A stretch of DNA of 64,000 nucleotides. Origin: Defluviimonas sp. SAOS-178_SWC (lineage in GTDB: Bacteria; Pseudomonadota; Alphaproteobacteria; Rhodobacterales; Rhodobacteraceae). The notes under the pieces are model-generated. The model was given only the letters and a program-made list of their open reading frames with translations. It searched no databases and had not been told where the DNA came from. Shown piece after piece: positions 49,184-59,694 of the stretch; positions within the stretch are counted from its first letter, which is position 1; each line of letters begins with the position of its first letter. The DNA lies in assembly GCF_039830135.1 (NCBI RefSeq), contig NZ_CP156081.1:3024001-3088000 (forward strand), given 5' to 3'. The translations under genes were made by a program, and so were the position numbers.

Positions 49184-50119
49184 ATGGAGACGGCCCCCTT
49201 CTACGACGACGTGGCCGAGGCGCCCGCAGGTGCGACCTGTGTCTGGCTCGGCACGTCCGACGGGGTGCGCATTCGCGCGGCGCATTGGCGCGGCGGCACG
49301 AAGGGGACGGTGCTGCTGTTCTCCGGCCGGACCGAGTACATCGAGAAATATGGCCCTGCCGCGGGGGAGTTCGCGGAACGGGCCTATGCGATGGCGGTGC
49401 TCGACTGGCGCGGCCAGGGCATCGCCGACCGGCTCATCGAGGAACGGGCGCCCGGCCATGTCGGCAGGTTCGGTGATTACCAGCGCGACGTGGCGGCCTT
49501 CATGGAGTTCGTCCGGGCGGAGAAACTGCCCGAGCCCTATTTCCTCCTCGGTCATTCCATGGGCGGCTGCATCGGGCTTCGGTCGATCTATGACGGGCTT
49601 CCGGTCCGGGCGGTGACGTTCTCCGCGCCGATGTGGGGGATCAAGATGCATCCCCTCCTGCGCCCGGTGGCCTGGACTTTGTCCACCCTCGCGCCGATTC
49701 TGGGGATGGGCGACCGCCTGGTGCCCTCCACCTCGCCGATGACCTATGTGCTCGAAGCGCCCTACGAGGGCAATTTCCTGACGCGCGACCGGGAGATGTT
49801 CGATTTCATGCAGCGCCAGCTGACAGTGCATCCGGACCTCGCCATCGGCGGACCGACGCTGCAATGGCTGCGCGAGGCGCTTTGCGAGACGCGGGCACTG
49901 GCCCGCCGCCCCTCGCCCGGCCTGCCCTGCCTCACCGTTCTCGGGTCCGAGGAGCGGATCGTCCACGCGCCCGCGATCCACGCGCGGATGGGGCGCTGGC
50001 CGGGGGCGGAATTCGACCTTGTCGACAATGCCGAGCACGAGCTGATGATGGAAAACCCGGCCATCCGGAAGCGGTTCTACGACATGTCGGCCACGCTCTT
50101 CGACGCCCATCGCGGCTGA
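49184..50119 (+). CDS. Lysophospholipase-like alpha/beta-hydrolase (PldB-like)
   Basis: The 311-residue hydrolase has the PldB-like start (LFSGRTEYIEKYGPAAGEFAERAYAMAVLDWRGQG), the nucleophile elbow LGHSMGGC and a C-terminal catalytic His in NAEHELMMENP. It probably cleaves lysophospholipids or monoacylglycerols. The gene lies just downstream of the SCP2 gene, and a hairpin follows its stop. Confidence 0.88.
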   Translation: METAPFYDDVAEAPAGATCVWLGTSDGVRIRAAHWRGGTKGTVLLFSGRTEYIEKYGPAAGEFAERAYAMAVLDWRGQGIADRLIEERAPGHVGRFGDYQRDVAAFMEFVRAEKLPEPYFLLGHSMGGCIGLRSIYDGLPVRAVTFSAPMWGIKMHPLLRPVAWTLSTLAPILGMGDRLVPSTSPMTYVLEAPYEGNFLTRDREMFDFMQRQLTVHPDLAIGGPTLQWLREALCETRALARRPSPGLPCLTVLGSEERIVHAPAIHARMGRWPGAEFDLVDNAEHELMMENPAIRKRFYDMSATLFDAHRG

Positions 50120-50164: not shown

Positions 50165-50890
50165 TCAGATCTTCACCTTCGCGAAACTGTCGCGAAGCGC
50201 TTTCGACCAGGCCGCGCTCATCTTGGCGAAATCGGGATCGCCTGCCTCGATCCGCCGCTGCTCGGCGACGCGGCAGTCGTCGCGGCGGATGACCGCGAGG
50301 TCGAGCGGCATCCCCACCGACAGGTTGGAGCGGAGCGTCGAGTCCATCGACAAGAGCACCGCCTTCTGGGCATCGGCAAGGGACGTGTCGGGCCGCACCA
50401 CCCGGTCGAGGATCGGCTTTCCGTATTTGTGCTCTCCGATCTGGAGGAACGGCGTGTCGTCAGTCGCCTCGATGAAATTGCCCTCCGGATAGATGAGGAA
50501 CATCCGCATCGCCCCGCCCTTGCGCTGGCCGGCGACGATCATCGAGGCCGAGACCCCCTGGCGCATCACGGCCAGCTTGTCGTCCACCGTCTGGCGCACC
50601 CGGGCAAGCGTATTGCCGACGATCTCGGCCACCGACAGCATGGTCGGCGCCATCATGATCGAGGTGTCGGGCCCGGCCTCGGGATCGTCGATCGCCTCGC
50701 GCAGCTCGGCGATGGCGGTCTGGGTGACCGACAGGCTGCCCGCCGTGACGATCGCGATCACGCGTTCGCCGGGATCCTCGAACATGAACATCTTGCGGTA
50801 GACCGCGATATTGTCGAGCCCGGCATTGGTACGCGTGTCCGAAAGGAGCACGATACCCTCGTTCAGCAAAAGCCCGACGCAATATGTCAT
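50165..50890 (-). CDS. Anbu proteasome-like peptidase
   Basis: The 241-residue protein is of the Ntn-hydrolase fold. Removal of the initiator Met would expose Thr2 in MTYCVGLLL, which fits the N-terminal nucleophile of proteasome-type proteins. The GSLSV and DPEAGPDTSIMMAPTMLSVAEIVGNTLARVR stretches match the Anbu (ancestral beta subunit) family. Peptidase activity has been difficult to show for Anbu. It is the last gene of a four-gene minus-strand operon with transglutaminase, alpha-E and circularly permuted ATP-grasp genes. ATG 50890 was chosen because the upstream in-frame codons would displace the Thr. Confidence 0.92.
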   Translation of the reverse strand: MTYCVGLLLNEGIVLLSDTRTNAGLDNIAVYRKMFMFEDPGERVIAIVTAGSLSVTQTAIAELREAIDDPEAGPDTSIMMAPTMLSVAEIVGNTLARVRQTVDDKLAVMRQGVSASMIVAGQRKGGAMRMFLIYPEGNFIEATDDTPFLQIGEHKYGKPILDRVVRPDTSLADAQKAVLLSMDSTLRSNLSVGMPLDLAVIRRDDCRVAEQRRIEAGDPDFAKMSAAWSKALRDSFAKVKI

Positions 50891-50924
50891 GTTCCGGTTC
50901 CCGATCCCCTCGCGAGGCGCGACA

Positions 50925-51731
50925 CTATTGCTGAGCTTGCTGGACCGCAACCGTGACTTCGAGGCTTTCCACCCCGAGGCCACGGGCTATGCCGCGGATG
51001 GGCGCGGCGTTGTGGGCGTCGTAGCCGGACCCGAGGCGGACATAGCGGTCGTCGGGGCAGCAGCGGTTGGCCGGGTCGAAGCCGATCCAGCCAAGCCCGT
51101 CGATCCAGATCTCGGCCCAGGCATGGGCCGCCTCGTGCGGGCTGCCGTCCTCGGCGGCGAAGAGGTAGCCCGAGGCATAGCGCGCCGGCAGGCCGAGGAC
51201 CCGCGCCGCGGCGATCAGCGCGTGGGCGTGGTCCTGGCAGACACCTTCGCCGAGGGCCAGCGCCTCGGCGGCCGTCGTGTGCGCCTCGGTCGCGCCGGGG
51301 CGGTAGGCGATGGCGTCGGCCACTGCCCGTGAAAGCGCATGGGCGCGCGCCAGCGGCTCGTCCTCCGCCACGGCTTGCGCCAGTGCGTTCAATCCCGCGT
51401 CGGCCCGGGTCGCGTGCGTTTCGCGCAGATAGACGACCGGGTTCACCGCCTCGCGATGCCCCTGCAACAAGCCCGACAGGTCGGCCGTCTCGACGGTGCC
51501 GGAGACCGCCACGGTGACGTGATCGGCCGGCCCCCGGACCGACCAGCTTTCGATCCAGTCCCCTGCCCCGTCGCGGAAAGCCGCGCCTTTCTGGCCGCCC
51601 TCGACTTCGATCTCCCAGTCGAGAACCTTCTGGCCGTCGAACACCGAGGGGGTCAGCCGCAGGCTTTGGACCGCGACCCGGATCGGCGCGTCGTAGCGGT
51701 AGACCGTGCGGTGCGAGACGCCGAGCTTCAT
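50925..51731 (-). CDS. Transglutaminase-like cysteine protease
   Basis: The 268-residue protein has an N-terminal beta-rich region (VSHRTVYRYDAPIRVAVQSLRLTP) and a transglutaminase core with Cys165 in GEGVCQDHAHALIAAARVLG, His203 in AAHAWAEIWI and Asp219 in GWIGFDPANR. That is the Cys-His-Asp triad. In Anbu operons it is proposed to process or ligate peptides made by the ATP-grasp enzyme. It overlaps the alpha-E gene start by four bases and precedes the Anbu gene by 34 bases. Confidence 0.92.
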   Translation of the reverse strand: MKLGVSHRTVYRYDAPIRVAVQSLRLTPSVFDGQKVLDWEIEVEGGQKGAAFRDGAGDWIESWSVRGPADHVTVAVSGTVETADLSGLLQGHREAVNPVVYLRETHATRADAGLNALAQAVAEDEPLARAHALSRAVADAIAYRPGATEAHTTAAEALALGEGVCQDHAHALIAAARVLGLPARYASGYLFAAEDGSPHEAAHAWAEIWIDGLGWIGFDPANRCCPDDRYVRLGSGYDAHNAAPIRGIARGLGVESLEVTVAVQQAQQ

Positions 51732-52681
51732 CGCGTCTCCCCACTCAGATAGGTGTCGTGCACCAAGGCGCCGATCCGGGCGATCTGGCCGATGAACCGG
51801 GTCAGGAACTCGTGCATGCCCTCCTCGAAGATTGCCTCGACCGTCAGACCCGCGACCTCGTCGCGCAATTTGTCGGCGGCGTGTTTCGCCGGGGTCTCGC
51901 GCCCGTAGGCCGTGGCGAGGTGATCGAGATGCGCCGCCGCGCCCGTGATCGAGGTCAGGAGCGACCGCGGGCATTGCCGGTTGAGGATCAGGAAATCCGC
52001 GACCTTGGCGGGCGTGATCTCTCCCCCGTAGGCCCAGTGAAAGGCGCGATGGGCCGAGAGCGCGCGGAGCAATGTCGTCCACTGGTAGGAATCGAGCCCG
52101 CTCCCCACATATTCCGCGCGCGGCAGGAGCACGTAGTATTTCACGTCGATGAGCCGCGCGGTGTTGTCGGCCCGCTCCAGCCGGTAACCGAGGCCGAGGA
52201 AATCGTAGCCGTCGTTGCGCAGAAGCGTCGTGTCGATGGCGCCCCGGACCTGGGCCGCGTGGCGCATCGTCCATTCGGTCAGCTGGCTCGTCTCGACGGC
52301 GCTCCGCTCCGCCCGCTCCAGCTGCCGCAACTCCTGATAGGCGGTGTTAAGCGCGTCCCAGACCTGCGCGGTCAGGGCGGTGCGGACGATCCGGCCGTTC
52401 TCGCGCGCGCGTTCGAGGCAGGAGGCGACGGAGGACGGGTTGTCACGGTCGAAGAAGAGATAGCTTTCGATATTGCGCTGGATCGGGTCGCCGTACTTCT
52501 TCGCGAACCCGGCGGCCGTCCCGGATGCCTGGAGGAGCGAATCCCATTCGTTGCGGTAGCCATGCCCGGCCGAGGGCAGCAGCGCGATCCGGGCGCCGAC
52601 CTCGAGAAGCCGCGCCGAGGTTTCGGCCCGCTCCATGTAGCGGCCGATCCAGTAGAGATTGTCAGCAGTCCGGCTCAGCAT
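51728..52681 (-). CDS. Alpha-E domain protein (DUF403)
   Basis: The 317-residue, all-helical protein starts MLSRTADNLYWIGRYMERAETSARLLEV, the diagnostic alpha-E motif, followed by helices with conserved ERAD/ERAE-like acidic sites (YRLERADNTARLIDVKYYVLL). Function is unknown. In this conserved cluster the alpha-E protein always accompanies the COG2308-type ATP-grasp and transglutaminase proteins. ATG 52681 places the gene five bases after the ATP-grasp stop. Confidence 0.92.
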   Translation of the reverse strand: MLSRTADNLYWIGRYMERAETSARLLEVGARIALLPSAGHGYRNEWDSLLQASGTAAGFAKKYGDPIQRNIESYLFFDRDNPSSVASCLERARENGRIVRTALTAQVWDALNTAYQELRQLERAERSAVETSQLTEWTMRHAAQVRGAIDTTLLRNDGYDFLGLGYRLERADNTARLIDVKYYVLLPRAEYVGSGLDSYQWTTLLRALSAHRAFHWAYGGEITPAKVADFLILNRQCPRSLLTSITGAAAHLDHLATAYGRETPAKHAADKLRDEVAGLTVEAIFEEGMHEFLTRFIGQIARIGALVHDTYLSGETR

Positions 52682-52685
52682 CGCA

Positions 52686-54101
52686 TCACTCCGCCAGCAC
52701 CCATGTGTCCTTGACGCCGCCCCCTTGCGAGGAATTGACGACAAGCGACCCCTCGGTCAACGCAACCCGCGTCAGGCCGCCGGGCACCAGTTCGATCGTC
52801 TCCCCGACGAGGCAATAGGGCCTCAGATCCACATGGCGCGGCGCCACGCCTTCGGCGACGAAGGACGGACAGGTCGAGAGCGCCAGCGTCGGCTGCGCGA
52901 TGTAGTTGCCGGGATTTTCACGGATGAGATCGGCGAAGGCGGCGATCTGCGCCTTGGTCGATTTCGGCCCCACCAGCATGCCGTAGCCGCCCGAACCGTG
53001 CACTTCCTTCACCACGAGGTCGCCGAGGTTGTCGAGGACATGGCCAAGGTCGTCGGGCCTGGCGCATTGCCAGGTCGGCACGTTCTGCAGGATCGGCTCC
53101 TCGCCGAGATAGAAGCGGATCATCTCGGGCACGTAGGTATAGACCGCCTTGTCGTCGGCCACGCCTGCACCCGGCGCCGAGCAGATCGTCACCCCTCCCG
53201 AACGGTAGACGTCCATCAGCCCCGGCACACCAAGCATCGAATCCGGCCGGAAGCACAGCGGATCAAGGAAGGCGTCATCGACGCGGCGGTAGATCACGTC
53301 GACCCGTTTCGGCCCTTCCGTCGTGCGCATCCAGACGAGCCCGCTTTCTACGAAAAGGTCCGGCCCCTCGACCAGTTCGACCCCCATGAGGTCGGCAAGG
53401 AAGGAATGTTCGTAATAGGCCGAGTTGAAATGACCGGGCGTCAGGATAACGACCGTCGGCTCGCCCTCGCATTTCGCTGGCGCGACCGAGGCGAGCGTGC
53501 GGCGCAGAAGCTCCGGATAGGCGTCCACCGGCTCGATCCGGTTCTCTCGGAAGAGGGCGGGAAACATCCGCATCATGATCTCGCGGTTTTCCAGCATGTA
53601 GCTGACGCCGGACGGGGTGCGGCAGTTGTCTTCCAGCACGAAGAAATCGTCCGGGCCGGTGCGCACGAGGTCGATACCGACGATATGGGCATAGACCCCT
53701 TTCGGCGGCACGAAACCGGCAACCGCCTTTTCGTAAGCCTCGTTGCCGTAGACCAGATGCGCCGGGATGCGCCCGGCGCGGATGATCTCTCCGCGTCCGT
53801 AGACATCGACGAGAAAGGCGTTGAGCGCCGCCGCCCGCTGCTTGATACCGCGATCGAGGCGGCGCCACTCTGCCTGCGAGAAGATCCGCGGCAGCATATC
53901 GAACGGGATCAGCCGGTCCGGGTCGCCGCCGTCGCCATAGACCGCGAAGGTGATGCCGATGCGGCGGAACAGCGTCTCCGCCTCGGCCTGCTTCATTGCC
54001 CGCAATTCCGCCGGCATGGACCGGGTCCAGCCTTCAAGGGCCGCATAGAGGCTGCGCACCGCGCCGCCGTCATACATCTCGTTGAAATAGTGTGCGGTCA
54101 T
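52686..54101 (-). CDS. Circularly permuted ATP-grasp protein (COG2308)
   Basis: The 471-residue protein shows the permuted ATP-grasp arrangement of the DUF404/DUF407 family (DVYGRGEIIRAGRIPAHLVYGNEAYEKAVAGF, VLEDNCRTPSGVSYMLENREIMMR, LLVGPKSTKAQ). Comparative work on amidoligases predicted that such enzymes form peptide or isopeptide bonds. It is the first gene of the operon ATP-grasp, alpha-E, transglutaminase, Anbu, and is divergent from pepF across 227 bases. Confidence 0.9.
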   Translation of the reverse strand: MTAHYFNEMYDGGAVRSLYAALEGWTRSMPAELRAMKQAEAETLFRRIGITFAVYGDGGDPDRLIPFDMLPRIFSQAEWRRLDRGIKQRAAALNAFLVDVYGRGEIIRAGRIPAHLVYGNEAYEKAVAGFVPPKGVYAHIVGIDLVRTGPDDFFVLEDNCRTPSGVSYMLENREIMMRMFPALFRENRIEPVDAYPELLRRTLASVAPAKCEGEPTVVILTPGHFNSAYYEHSFLADLMGVELVEGPDLFVESGLVWMRTTEGPKRVDVIYRRVDDAFLDPLCFRPDSMLGVPGLMDVYRSGGVTICSAPGAGVADDKAVYTYVPEMIRFYLGEEPILQNVPTWQCARPDDLGHVLDNLGDLVVKEVHGSGGYGMLVGPKSTKAQIAAFADLIRENPGNYIAQPTLALSTCPSFVAEGVAPRHVDLRPYCLVGETIELVPGGLTRVALTEGSLVVNSSQGGGVKDTWVLAE

Positions 54102-54328
54102 TGATCATCCCGTGCCGCTCCGGCGATTCCGCGGGCGGTTGTCGAATTGTTAGGCACCCAGGACAGTGGCGCAAAGCGCGACCACGCGATCAGCCCATGA
54201 CCCGAACGAAAAAACGCTGAAAAAATCCACATACGCCTAAATATTGGGCAGAAAACTGCGAGGTTCTCGACCTTGCAGAGCGCGCGCCCCGCGCCTTATG
54301 TCTGGGGCACCGGAAAAAAGAGGACGCC

Positions 54329-56158
54329 ATGATGATCGCCACGCCCCGCCCCGTTCACGACGCCAACGCGACTGCGGGAGGCGGGCTCGGCAAGTTGCCG
54401 GAATGGGATCTGAGCGACCTCTACACCGCCCCCGACGCGCCGGAAGTGGCGCGCGACCTCGACTGGCTGGAGAAGGCCTGCGCCGGGTTCGCGTCCGACT
54501 ACGAAGGCAAGCTTGCCGGTCTCGATGCCGAAGGGATGCTCGACTGCATCCGCCGCTACGAGCGGATCGAGGCGGTGGCGGGGCGGATCATGTCCTATGC
54601 GGGCCTGCGCTACTATCAGAACACGGTCGACGCGACCCGCGCCAAGTTCATGTCGGACTGCCAGGACAAGGTCACCGATTTCACCACGCCGCTCGTCTTC
54701 TTCTCGCTCGAGTTCAACCGGATCGAGGATGCGGCCTACGACAGGCTCTTTACGGCCAATGCCGAGATCGGACGCTACAAGCCGGTTTTCGACCGGATGC
54801 GCGCGATGCGGCCCCACCAGCTTTCGGACGATCTGGAGAAGTTCCTGCACGATACCTCTGTCGTCGGCGCCTCGGCCTGGAACAAGCTTTTCGACGAGAC
54901 GATGGCGGGGCTGGAATTCACCGTCGCCGGCGAAGACGAGCCGATGAGCCTCGAAGCCGTCCTGAACCTTCTCTCCGAGCCCGAGCGCGACCGCCGCGAG
55001 GCCGGGGCGCGGGCGCTGGCGCAGGTCTTCGGCGAGAACGTCAAGCTTTTCGCCCGGGTGCACAACACGCTCGCGAAGGAAAAGGAGATCGAGGATCGCT
55101 GGCGCAAGATGCCCACGCCACAGACCGCGCGGCATCTCTCGAACCACGTCGAACCCGAGGTGGTCGAGGCGCTGAGGAACGCCGTCGTCGCCGCCTACCC
55201 GAAGCTCTCGCACCGCTACTATGCGCTGAAGGCGAAGTGGATGGGGCTCGACAAGCTCCAGGTCTGGGACCGGAACGCGCCGCTGCCGATCGAGGAAAAG
55301 AAGACCGTCGGCTGGGACGAGGCGCGCGAGATGGTGATGTCGGCCTATGCCGATTTCGCGCCCGAGATGGCGAAGATCGCGGAACCCTTCTTCGACAAGG
55401 GCTGGATCGACGCCGGTGTGAAGCCCGGCAAGGCGCCCGGCGCCTTTGCGCACCCGACGGTGACGGATGTCCACCCCTATGTTCTCCTGAACTACCTCGG
55501 CAAGCCGCGCGACGTGATGACGCTGGCGCATGAGCTTGGCCACGGCGTTCATCAGGTGCTTGCCGCCCCGCAGGGCGAGATGCTGGCCTCGACGCCGCTG
55601 ACGCTCGCCGAGACCGCCAGTGTCTTCGGCGAGATGCTGACCTTCCGCCGGCTTCTCGCCCAGGCGAAGACGCCGAACGAGCGCAAGACGCTTCTGGCCG
55701 GCAAGGTCGAGGACATGATCAACACGGTCGTCCGCCAGATCGCCTTCTACGATTTCGAATGCAAGCTCCATGCCGCGCGCCGGGCGGGTGAGCTGACGCC
55801 TGAAGACATCAACACGCTCTGGATGAGCATCCAGGGCGAAAGCCTCGGGCCGGTCTTCGAATTCATGGACGGATACGAGACGTTCTGGTCCTACATCCCG
55901 CATTTCGTCCACTCGCCCTTCTACGTCTATGCCTATGCCTTCGGCGATGGCCTCGTGAACGCGCTCTATGCCGCCTACGAAGAGGGCCTGCCGGGCTTCG
56001 AGGAGAAGTATTTCGAGATGCTCAAGGCGGGCGGATCGAAGCACCACAAGGACCTTCTCGCGCCCTTCGGGCTCGATGCGAGCGATCCGACGTTCTGGGA
56101 CAAGGGGCTCAGCATGATCGCCGGCATGATCGACGAGTTGGAGGCGATGGAGGACTGA
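54329..56158 (+). CDS. pepF: Oligoendopeptidase F (M3 family)
   Basis: The 609-residue cytoplasmic zinc peptidase has the M3 catalytic motif LAHELGHGVHQ near residue 395 with the downstream Glu in ETASVFGEML. The N-terminal PepF region (LSDLYTAPDAPEVARDLDWLEKACAGFASDYEGKL) and C-terminal YAYAFGDGLVNALYAAYEEGLPGF are standard. It hydrolyses short peptides. A GAGGA ribosome binding site precedes the ATG. Divergent from the Anbu operon, which also deals with peptides; any functional link is speculative. Confidence 0.95.
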   Translation: MMIATPRPVHDANATAGGGLGKLPEWDLSDLYTAPDAPEVARDLDWLEKACAGFASDYEGKLAGLDAEGMLDCIRRYERIEAVAGRIMSYAGLRYYQNTVDATRAKFMSDCQDKVTDFTTPLVFFSLEFNRIEDAAYDRLFTANAEIGRYKPVFDRMRAMRPHQLSDDLEKFLHDTSVVGASAWNKLFDETMAGLEFTVAGEDEPMSLEAVLNLLSEPERDRREAGARALAQVFGENVKLFARVHNTLAKEKEIEDRWRKMPTPQTARHLSNHVEPEVVEALRNAVVAAYPKLSHRYYALKAKWMGLDKLQVWDRNAPLPIEEKKTVGWDEAREMVMSAYADFAPEMAKIAEPFFDKGWIDAGVKPGKAPGAFAHPTVTDVHPYVLLNYLGKPRDVMTLAHELGHGVHQVLAAPQGEMLASTPLTLAETASVFGEMLTFRRLLAQAKTPNERKTLLAGKVEDMINTVVRQIAFYDFECKLHAARRAGELTPEDINTLWMSIQGESLGPVFEFMDGYETFWSYIPHFVHSPFYVYAYAFGDGLVNALYAAYEEGLPGFEEKYFEMLKAGGSKHHKDLLAPFGLDASDPTFWDKGLSMIAGMIDELEAMED

Positions 56159-56445: not shown

Positions 56446-58503
56446 ATGGCGACGACGTTCAACTGGATCTATCTCGGAACGTCGTCGACGATGCTCGACC
56501 CGACCGAGGGCAATACCACCGCCGAAAACATCAACGCTTTCGTCGGCAGCACTTTCGGATCGTCCGGCAATCCGCTCTACACGCACATCACCTCGGCCAC
56601 GATGGTCAACGTGGGCGGTTCGGCGACCGCGCTGGACGGGAACAACAACCTTGCCAACGACCGGTTCACCACCGATATCGGATCGGGCACCCAGACCTTC
56701 ACCTTCGACATCAGCGTCCAGTACAACGCCACGGTGACCTATGCCGACGGGACGACCGGGACGGTGACGGCCGTCGTCCTGCAAAGCACGACCGGGCAGC
56801 TTTTCCTGGCCCCCGAAACCGCCGCGGGGTCCGACACCAACGTCTATGAAGCCAAGCCGATCCAGTCGATCACGTTCAACTCGGCCGCGAGCTACAGCGG
56901 CAACCTCGGCACAGATCGCTATGTCACCGGCTTCGACGACGGTTTCGTCGAGGGGACCGCAGGCAACGACCTGATCAACGCCAGCTATGTCGAGCCGGTC
57001 GCCAACGGGACCGACCGGATCGACAACGGCGACGGGATCTCGAGCGCCGGCACGGCCTGGCAGGACGACCGCGTCCGCGCCGGGGCGGGCAACGACACGG
57101 TGCTGGCCGGGCTCGGCAACGACTACGTCGACGGTGGAACCGGCGCGGATTCCATTGATGGCGGCAGCGGCAACGACTCGCTCTACGGCGGAGACGGCGT
57201 CTTCAACGACACCATCCTCGGCGGAGACGGAAACGACACGATCGACGGCGGAGACGGAAACGACTCGCTTCTCGGCGGCGCGGGGGCCGACAGCATCGCG
57301 GGCGGCGCCGGAGACGACTACGTCGATGGTGGCGACGGCAGCGACATCATCGACGGTGGCCCCGGCAACGACACGTTGATCTTCGGCGCCGGGGACGACA
57401 CCGTCCATGGCGGCGACGGCAACGATTTCATCGACGACGCCATCGGGGCCCAATTGGTCGGCGCCAACCTACTGGACGGCGGCGCGGGCAACGACACGAT
57501 CTACGGTGGCGGCGGCGACGACACGCTGATCGGCGGCGCGGACGATGACCGGCTGTTCGGCGAGGACGGGGCGGACAGCCTCGATGGCGGCACCGGGAAC
57601 GATGCACTCGACGGCGGTACCGGCAACGACACGCTGATCGGCGGCGCCGGCGACGACACGATGACCGGCGGCACCGGAAGCGACTATTTCGCCGGGCTGA
57701 CTGCCGGCGACGTCGTCGATGGTTCCGAGGATGCGGGCGGCGGCGACAACGACGTGCTCGACCTCTTCGGGTCCGGCTGGACCAAGGCGACCACCAACAT
57801 CGTCTTCTCGACACCCGACCACGAAAACGGCACGGTCGAATTACTCGACGGGTCGGGCAATGTCGTCGGGACGATGACCTTTTCCAACATCGAGACCATC
57901 GTCCCCTGCTTCACGCCCGGCACGCGGATCGAGACCAGGCAGGGCCCGGTCGCCGTCGAGCGGTTGAAGGCGGGCGACCGTGTCCTGACGAAGGATCACG
58001 GCTACCAGACGCTGCGCTGGATCGGGCGGCGTGATCTGACGCCTGCGGATCTCGCAGCGCATCCGACGCTCAGGCCGATCCTGATCCGCGCCGGGGCGTT
58101 CGGCCCTGCGATGCCCGCGCGCGACATGCGCCTGTCGCCACAGCACCGGGTGCTTCTCAGCGGCGCACGGGCCGAGCTGTTCGCTGGCGAGGCAGAGGTC
58201 TTCGCGCCCGCGGTGCACTTCGTCGGATTGTCCGGCGTGGTGCGGGACGCGGCCTCGGGCGGCACGAGCTACATCCATCTGCTCTTCGACCGGCATGAGA
58301 TCGTTCGCTCCGACGGGATCTGGAGCGAGAGCTTCCAGCCCGCGGCGGCGATGCTTTCGGGGCTTGAGCGCGACCAGCGCGACGAGGTTCTGGCGCTGTT
58401 CCCGGAACTGATCGGGGACCTTTCCCCCGCGAACAATGGGAACTATCCTGCGGCGCGATCGACGGTGAAACGGCACGAGGCGCGGCTGATCCTCGCGTCC
58501 TGA
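56446..58503 (+). CDS. RTX calcium-binding protein with C-terminal Hint domain
   Basis: The 685-residue protein has an unassigned N-terminal region (1-210) rich in Thr/Ser/Asp and at least ten GGxGxDxxx nonapeptide RTX repeats (about 212-412), which bind calcium and fold after type I secretion. A Hint (hedgehog/intein) domain starts at Cys488 ([28 protein letters not shown]) and runs to about 630. No classical signal peptide is seen, as expected for a type I substrate; no T1SS genes are nearby. AGGAAG precedes the ATG. The next gene starts 15 bases after its stop. Confidence 0.92.
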
Positions 58504-58518: not shown

Positions 58519-59694
58519 ATGTGGCTCATCTGGAGGATACTCGCGGCGCTCGCCGTCATCGCCGCGCTCGGGTTCTTCCTCTTTGCTCCGGGCATCGTCG
58601 AGAGGCGGCAGAACCCGGTTATCGCCCACGATCCCTGGCCGGTCAGCCCCGCCGCGAAGGCGATGCACGAGCGGCTGATCATCGGGGACTGGCACGCGGA
58701 TTCGCTGCTTTGGGGGCGTGACCTGACCGAACGCGCGTCGCGCGGGCAGGTCGACCTGCCACGGCTCGCCGAGGGCAATGTCGCGGTACAGGTCTTCACC
58801 ACCGTCACGAAAAGCCCCTCCGGCCTCAACTACGAAAAGAACGCGGCGGACGCGCGCGACGACATCACGCTGCTGTTCCTGGGCCAGCTCCGCCCCCTGC
58901 GCGCCTGGCTCGATCTGACGCAACGGGCATTGGTTCAGGCCGCAGCGCTGGCGGCCGCCGAGGACAGGGCGCCCGATGCGGTGAAGATCGTGCGGACGCG
59001 GGCCGATCTCGCCTCCGTACTCGACCGCCGGGCGGGCGGCGAAAAGGTCGTCGGCGCGATCCTTGGCGCCGAGGGCGGTCATGCCCTGTCAGGCGAGATC
59101 GGCAATCTCGACAAGCTGTACGATGCCGGGTTCCGGCTGATCGGGCTCACGCATTTCTTCGACAACGCGCTTGGCTCCTCGCTTCACGGCGAGGCCGGGG
59201 CGGAGAGCGGCCTGACCGATTTCGGCCGGGAGGTGGTCAAGAAACTGGTCGAGAAGCGGATGATCATCGACCTTGCCCACGCCTCCCCGGCGATGGCGCG
59301 GGAGGTTCTGGACATGGTCGATGTGCCAGTCGTGGTCAGCCATACCGGCATCTACAGCCACTGCCAGACGGTGCGGAACTTCCCCGACGACCTGATGAAA
59401 GCGGTCGCCGACAAGGGCGGCCTGATCGGGATCGGCTTCTGGAAAGAGGTCACTTGCGACGACGGCCCGGCAGGGATCGCCGGCGCCATTGTCGCGGCGA
59501 TTGCGCTTGTCGGCGCGGATCACGTCTCGCTCGGATCGGATTTCGACGGGGCGGTGACGACACGGTTCGACGTGTCCGAACTCGCGGCCCTCACACAGGC
59601 CCTCATGGACCGGGGCCTCGACGAACCGGCGATCGCCAAGGTCATGGGCGGCAACATGATCCGCTTCCTCGAGGCGGCGCTGCCGGACGCCTGA
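58519..59694 (+). CDS. Membrane-anchored dipeptidase (M19, renal dipeptidase type)
   Basis: The 391-residue metallopeptidase has an N-terminal transmembrane anchor (about 1-24, WLIWRILAALAVIAALGFFLFAPG) and an extracytoplasmic M19 domain. Zinc ligands include the HxD in DWHADS (His59, Asp61), Glu in EGGHAL, and later His residues in SHTGIYSH and GSDFDGAVT. M19 enzymes cleave dipeptides and sometimes beta-lactams. It may be co-expressed with the RTX gene, which ends 15 bases upstream. Confidence 0.92.
   Translation: MWLIWRILAALAVIAALGFFLFAPGIVERRQNPVIAHDPWPVSPAAKAMHERLIIGDWHADSLLWGRDLTERASRGQVDLPRLAEGNVAVQVFTTVTKSPSGLNYEKNAADARDDITLLFLGQLRPLRAWLDLTQRALVQAAALAAAEDRAPDAVKIVRTRADLASVLDRRAGGEKVVGAILGAEGGHALSGEIGNLDKLYDAGFRLIGLTHFFDNALGSSLHGEAGAESGLTDFGREVVKKLVEKRMIIDLAHASPAMAREVLDMVDVPVVVSHTGIYSHCQTVRNFPDDLMKAVADKGGLIGIGFWKEVTCDDGPAGIAGAIVAAIALVGADHVSLGSDFDGAVTTRFDVSELAALTQALMDRGLDEPAIAKVMGGNMIRFLEAALPDA

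Follow-up and report, generated by a model that had tools for sequence, protein, structure and literature searches.

Anbu, a name that dates from 2008, is the subject of two competing published views: in one it is a member of a peptide-synthesis loop, in the other an independent protease. We know of no Anbu substrate to date. The closest described system is the Anbu operon of Fuchs 2017 (PMC5666114) and Piasecka 2018 (PMC6376114), which, as presented there, matches the locus analyzed here in its protein families, gene order and Anbu residues (Thr1, Asp17 and Lys32(33)). Lineage is the sole difference; relatives with an orphan Anbu, or with an operon that lacks the transglutaminase-like gene, are added here. 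Published Anbu is described as a dodecameric open split ring formed through its C-terminal helix (PMC5666114, PMC8665760). Two published studies (one of them PMC6376114) report purified Anbu to have no activity on standard substrates, and in PMC6376114 no specific interaction was seen in pull-downs of co-expressed operon proteins; phosphate release is reported there for the ATP-grasp homologue of Yersinia bercovieri.

Like the Anbu operon, the RloABC and RimK/RimB systems of Pseudomonas (PMC12239564) pair an ATP-grasp protein with a peptidase, and Rlo also has a transglutaminase-like protein. However, as described in that paper, the peptidase is aspartic, and Rlo has its transglutaminase domain in an inactive form bound to the membrane. 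Among the ATP-grasp proteins, RloC is similar to RimK (24% identity per PMC12239564).

An intact Anbu operon

The window (the whole 64,000-nucleotide stretch of DNA that was analyzed) comes from a 4.34 Mb genome in two contigs. The features of concern are:

52686..54101, minus strand: circularly permuted ATP-grasp (DUF404/DUF407), 471 aa, operon gene 1
51728..52681, minus strand: alpha-E protein (DUF403), 317 aa
50925..51731, minus strand: transglutaminase-like protein (TG), 268 aa, with Cys165/His203/Asp219
50165..50890, minus strand: Anbu, proteasome-type Ntn hydrolase, 241 aa, with Thr1/Asp17/Lys32
54102..54328, no strand: intergenic stretch between ATP-grasp and divergent pepF, 227 bases (sequence and motif scan)
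54329..56158, plus strand: PepF-like M3-family oligoendopeptidase, divergent neighbor (TIGR02290, 636 bits)
49184..50119, plus strand: alpha/beta hydrolase, convergent neighbor (PF12146, 123 bits)

The order ATP-grasp, alpha-E, TG, Anbu on a single strand (minus) is that of an Anbu operon, and the spacings read from the sequence are 4 bases (ATP-grasp/alpha-E), -4 bases (alpha-E/TG, an ATGA overlap) and 34 bases (TG/Anbu). The first-pass annotation had described four minus-strand genes with these spacings, a TG with Cys165/His203/Asp219 and an Anbu with Thr at position 2, all of which is correct in the sequence; its statement that the association had been described before, with product and Anbu substrate unknown, agrees with the accounts given in Fuchs 2017 (PMC5666114) and Piasecka 2018 (PMC6376114).

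Pfam profiles assign each protein to its family. The ATP-grasp matches CP_ATPgrasp_2 (PF14403, 546 bits against a cut-off of 32, covering profile positions 1-374 of 374) and CP_ATPgrasp_1 (PF04174, 493 bits), and alpha-E matches PF04168 (309 bits against a cut-off of 20.8, covering 1-294 of 294); the AlphaFold2 model of alpha-E is all-helical and of high confidence (pLDDT 90.7, pTM 0.90). TG matches Transglut_core (PF01841, 86 bits), within which residues 165, 203 and 219 of the Cys-His-Asp triad fall, and Bact_transglu_N (PF08379, 68 bits), while Anbu matches Proteasome (PF00227, 31 bits). Anbu begins M-T-Y-C, and its Thr1, Asp17 and Lys32 are given in mature numbering, after PMC6376114. A scan of the eight proteins encoded between 48266 and 56158 (PepF, the hydrolase, SCP2, TPR and the operon's own four) found no AAA+ unfoldase beside Anbu.

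Among PDB sequences, Anbu matches 5loy, 5nyj, 5nyf, 5nyw and 5lox (counted at E up to 0.001) over nearly the full length: three are named Anbu and two (5nyw, 5lox) Peptidase, 5lox being Anbu according to PMC8665760. TG matches 3isr (E 1e-12) and 6g49, and alpha-E gave no match in the PDB sequence search at E up to 1. With E values of 4e-76 (5loy) to 3.5e-57 for Anbu and 2e-195 (3n6x) for the ATP-grasp, the family identities of Anbu and ATP-grasp, judged from sequence, are not due to chance. The genome groups with the Rhodobacteraceae; the closest named locus is that of a Rhodobacterales MAG (ATP-grasp identity 94%). The window locus is an ordinary, intact Anbu operon with gene content of known type: because this type is already in print, the locus is another member of a published kind.

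HslV is, like Anbu, a proteasome beta-type Ntn peptidase, and has its own gene in the window's genome (G000:C2:56712; HslV model, 273 bits). At ten other loci (L086-L095) a divergent Anbu-like protein (33-39% identity) is encoded away from the operon: in six (L087, L088, L090, L091, L092, L095) its gene lies near clpS-clpA, with a phasin gene in between in five of the six.

Co-occurrence of Anbu and its partners

Anbu and ATP-grasp were searched for separately in samples of the class, the family (about one genome per genus) and the phylum, with some genomes common to the samples. In the class (192 genomes) Anbu was found in 60, ATP-grasp in 76 and both in 59 (Fisher P = 1e-32); in the family (296 genomes) the numbers are 211, 220 and 210 (P = 7e-58), and in the phylum (347 genomes) 145, 204 and 141 (P = 6e-41), all three P values being uncorrected for phylogeny. 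The single class genome with Anbu but no ATP-grasp (G133) holds a 23-bit fragment. Conserved co-occurrence across genomes, on which the first-pass annotation had made its association depend, is thus strong: 210 of 211 family genomes and 141 of 145 phylum genomes with Anbu also have ATP-grasp. Of the 76 class genomes with ATP-grasp, 75 also have alpha-E; the remaining one (G127, 270 contigs) has its ATP-grasp at the end of a contig. All four genes are present in 79 of 80 named loci, which were chosen by ATP-grasp; at the lone exception (L192:6001-9174) ATP-grasp, alpha-E and TG stand without Anbu in the stretch covered. Among the 192 class genomes 17 have an ATP-grasp match but no Anbu, as do 10 of the 296 in the family sample (one of the ten, G465, by a weak match, E 7e-5).

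Two explanations draw on this association. According to the first (put forward in the earlier annotation, and by Iyer 2009 according to citing papers), a peptide or tag is synthesized by ATP-grasp with alpha-E and is attached or processed by TG, and Anbu alone degrades the product: the co-occurrence in all three samples, the 79 complete loci, and the pairing of ATP-grasp with peptidase in the RimK/RimB and RloABC loci (PMC12239564) speak for such a loop, while the published pull-downs (PMC6376114) and the genomes with ATP-grasp and no Anbu speak against it. According to the second, ATP-grasp and its partners activate or mature Anbu, or supply a tag that Anbu reads. This would explain why purified Anbu was inactive in the two studies, and the strong co-occurrence again counts in its favor.

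Anbu persists where its partners are gone

Genomes that have Anbu without partners bear on both explanations. Among the genomes analyzed ten have Anbu and no ATP-grasp match anywhere: six belong to the window's genus (G192, G193, G196, G197, G207, G208), one lies elsewhere in the family (G453) and three come from a distant genus (G587, G710, G789). In the window's genus (22 genomes examined, including the window's) ten loci (L122-L131) have Anbu 142-267 bases from a divergent pepF, with ATP-grasp, alpha-E and TG gone; nine of the ten retain the hydrolase, SCP2 and TPR genes on the opposite side. When the three missing proteins were used as tblastn queries against L122-L131 and L215, the best E was 0.13. 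The six genus genomes listed above (91-99% complete) have no match to ATP-grasp or alpha-E genome-wide, and TG is either absent from them or weakly matched (G193, G207). The other four genomes with an orphan locus (G201, G202, G206, G212) carry a set of ATP-grasp, alpha-E and TG elsewhere, with an ATP-grasp 62-65% identical. The set of G201 has its own Anbu (L132), while those of G202, G206 and G212 (L216, L217, L218) have no Anbu within 14 kb: in these three a second-type ATP-grasp/alpha-E/TG set lies distant from the genome's sole Anbu match. One further member of the genus (G194) lacks all four genes.

Beyond the genus, G453 (family sample, two contigs) has Anbu at L215, where none of the three partners is matched and pepF is 3.9 kb off. 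G587, G710 and G789 (phylum sample) form a single genus of another family in which Anbu stands alone at the fetched loci; in two further genera of this other family Anbu has ATP-grasp and alpha-E close by. In the Anbu tree nine of the genus orphans group as a single clade with weak support (ultrafast bootstrap 73), to the exclusion of L127 and L215, while in the PepF tree these nine are split and do not form one clade. At least two independent losses of the partners are needed, and four are likely.

In the openly licensed literature, with the founding surveys covered through papers that cite them, we found no description of Anbu without partners. The wording of Fuchs 2017 (PMC5666114; "frequently") and Piasecka 2018 (PMC6376114; "predominantly") implies that exceptions were already known, and the former reports partners without Anbu in archaea. 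What is new is that some close relatives without the three partner genes retain Anbu under strong selection.

Selection on orphan Anbu

Thr1, Asp17 and Lys32 are kept in all 99 Anbu frames more than 60% identical from family loci, orphans included (93 rows are left once identical rows and one short row are dropped), and likewise in the distant orphans G587, G710 and G789. Under a codon model, omega is 0.042 for the nine orphans, 0.040 for the six without any ATP-grasp, and 0.065 for nine intact sequences. Among close species that all lack ATP-grasp it is 0.013 (G192/G193/G197) and 0.045 (G587/G710/G789), compared with 0.048 for an intact trio. Fixing omega at 1 (kappa at 2) worsened the fit by 104 to 608 log units across the six sets. 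The low omega of the nine orphans may be due in part to service to the second set carried by G201, G202, G206 and G212; the subsets without any ATP-grasp set are free of this confounding. Orphan Anbu thus shows no sign of relaxed selection (omega of 0.013-0.045 versus 0.048-0.065 for operon-borne Anbu). Low omega means constraint, and leaves the nature of the function undefined.

At twelve positions all or nearly all of the nine orphans share a residue that is rare (<15%) in 82 intact sequences. One of these is Asn26His, part of the hairpin (residues 17-31, as given in PMC6376114) that lies close to the active site. These positions are a mere lead, because the nine orphans are one clade.

Because Anbu is kept under strong selection where its partners are lost, it probably performs a separate function. 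The two-stage pathway of synthesis and degradation suggested in the first-pass annotation is accordingly weakened: ten genomes keep Anbu, constrained in the sets tested, without an ATP-grasp match, and ATP-grasp is found without Anbu in the class and family genomes counted above. We consider it unlikely that Anbu serves solely to degrade a product of its operon partners. The proposal that the partners activate Anbu or tag its substrates meets the same difficulty, orphan Anbu being conserved without any such system, and is less probable still.

Modularity of the operon

In 42 class loci sorted by hand (window included) Anbu and alpha-E lie in one fetched stretch. As judged at the locus, TG is missing between alpha-E and Anbu in nine; the 33 with TG include L054 (partners on the opposite strand), L058 (Anbu approximately 8 kb from TG) and L041 (ATP-grasp on another contig). 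A fused ATP-grasp/alpha-E is encoded elsewhere in eight of the nine TG-less genomes, compared with four of the 33 with TG (P = 3.4e-5); in the ninth TG-less genome (G076) the operon adjoins a large frame that matches TG weakly. The fused proteins combine ligase and alpha-E domains as the operon does, at an ATP-grasp identity of 29-38%, but in a single protein of roughly 800-1000 aa at a separate locus where the operon has two genes; no match to them was found in the window's genome. Many class genomes have such a fused protein as a second system, accompanied at L107 and L111 by separate TG genes.

ATP-grasp and alpha-E travel together, TG is absent from some operons, and Anbu is separable both ways, since orphan Anbu genes exist and ATP-grasp occurs without Anbu in the class and family samples.

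At 11 of the 80 named loci (L157, L166, L179, L185, L195, L202, L205, L207, L208, L212, L213) a small-protein gene lies between TG and Anbu on the same strand; the window is without it. By eye, the encoded proteins mostly have a YDFDI-like start and many have a hydrophobic C-terminal stretch. There was no Pfam match (two members searched) and no fold match, and 88 relatives were found among 5.8 billion proteins. The small protein is a candidate partner or substrate of Anbu in its clade.

PepF and other neighbors

The first-pass annotation had raised the divergent PepF as a possible pathway member, and PepF could be a fifth component, finishing off peptides that Anbu has released. Of the 80 named family loci, 69 have it upstream of ATP-grasp at a distance of no more than 6 kb (<400 bases in 32 of them, farther in the other 37), and it is divergent from orphan Anbu in the ten genus loci; it is absent from five named loci with a full flank and six with a truncated one. 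Against this, PepF is found in the fetched flanks of none of 80 class loci (64 with Anbu), from which the opposite-side hydrolase is likewise absent, and the operon occurs without PepF at L133 and L134 (two other genera of the family): the linkage is not conserved beyond one lineage. Plain synteny suffices, because most of these PepF-bearing loci have also retained the genes for hydrolase, SCP2 and TPR on the far side. The linkage looks like lineage synteny; we judge neither PepF nor the hydrolase to be operon members, and regard a role for PepF in finishing Anbu products as highly improbable.

Further along, the window encodes a protein with RTX repeats and, toward its C terminus, a Hint domain (56446-58503) and a family M19 membrane dipeptidase (58519-59694).

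Regulation

The 300 bases upstream of ATP-grasp were scanned for the sigma-54 consensus TGGYRYRN4YTGC. It is present at nine of 54 class loci against 0.36 expected (18 of 2700 random 300-mers from the same loci), at one of 93 family loci (some genomes counted twice), and has no match upstream of the window's ATP-grasp. The excess at class loci agrees with published reports on NtrC/sigma-54, on nitrogen limitation and on COG3484, which we take to be Anbu. A cluster of DUF404/407, DUF403 and transglutaminase in Burkholderia cenocepacia is described as NtrC/sigma-54-dependent (PMC5491218), induction in nitrogen-limited Pseudomonas putida is cited by Fuchs 2017 (PMC5666114), and COG3484 is listed among predicted sigma-54 targets (PMC12316311); the partner domains are also reported to track urea genes in marine metagenomes (PMC3597751). 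These reports suggest a possible role in nitrogen economy. However, Fuchs 2017 (PMC5666114) describes expression as unchanged under various conditions and the system as dispensable without stress, which counts against a broad response. Nitrogen control stays unsupported for the window's lineage, because the window has no sigma-54 site and the family loci have one in 93.

Discussion

We favor, at a probability of roughly 0.6, a reading in which the operon comprises two separable modules: a ligase module, and an autonomous Anbu whose substrate is independent of the product of the first. The ATP-grasp/alpha-E pair would act as one ATP-dependent amide ligase, with a small carboxylate or amine, or a peptide, as acceptor; the transglutaminase-like enzyme, a putative thiol enzyme missing from some operons, would trim or transamidate. 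Anbu would be an open-ring Thr1 Ntn peptidase whose targets are ordinary peptides or proteins of the cell; it would be co-expressed with the first module (under regulation common to both in some lineages) without depending on the product of that module. Against two separable modules, the near-perfect co-occurrence elsewhere suggests that most genomes have a substrate common to both, and in the orphans an unrelated ligase could replace the one lost.

A stronger claim, which we hold to be slightly short of an even bet, is that Anbu is a free-standing protease with its own conserved cellular substrate, and that ATP-grasp, alpha-E and TG merely belong to the same regulon. Lineages without the loop in which Anbu is fully constrained favor Anbu as an independent protease, and are the organisms for a direct test. 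If Anbu is indeed free-standing, then the orphan species of both genera would be natural three-gene knockouts, in which the Anbu substrate should be findable without interference from the three-gene module.
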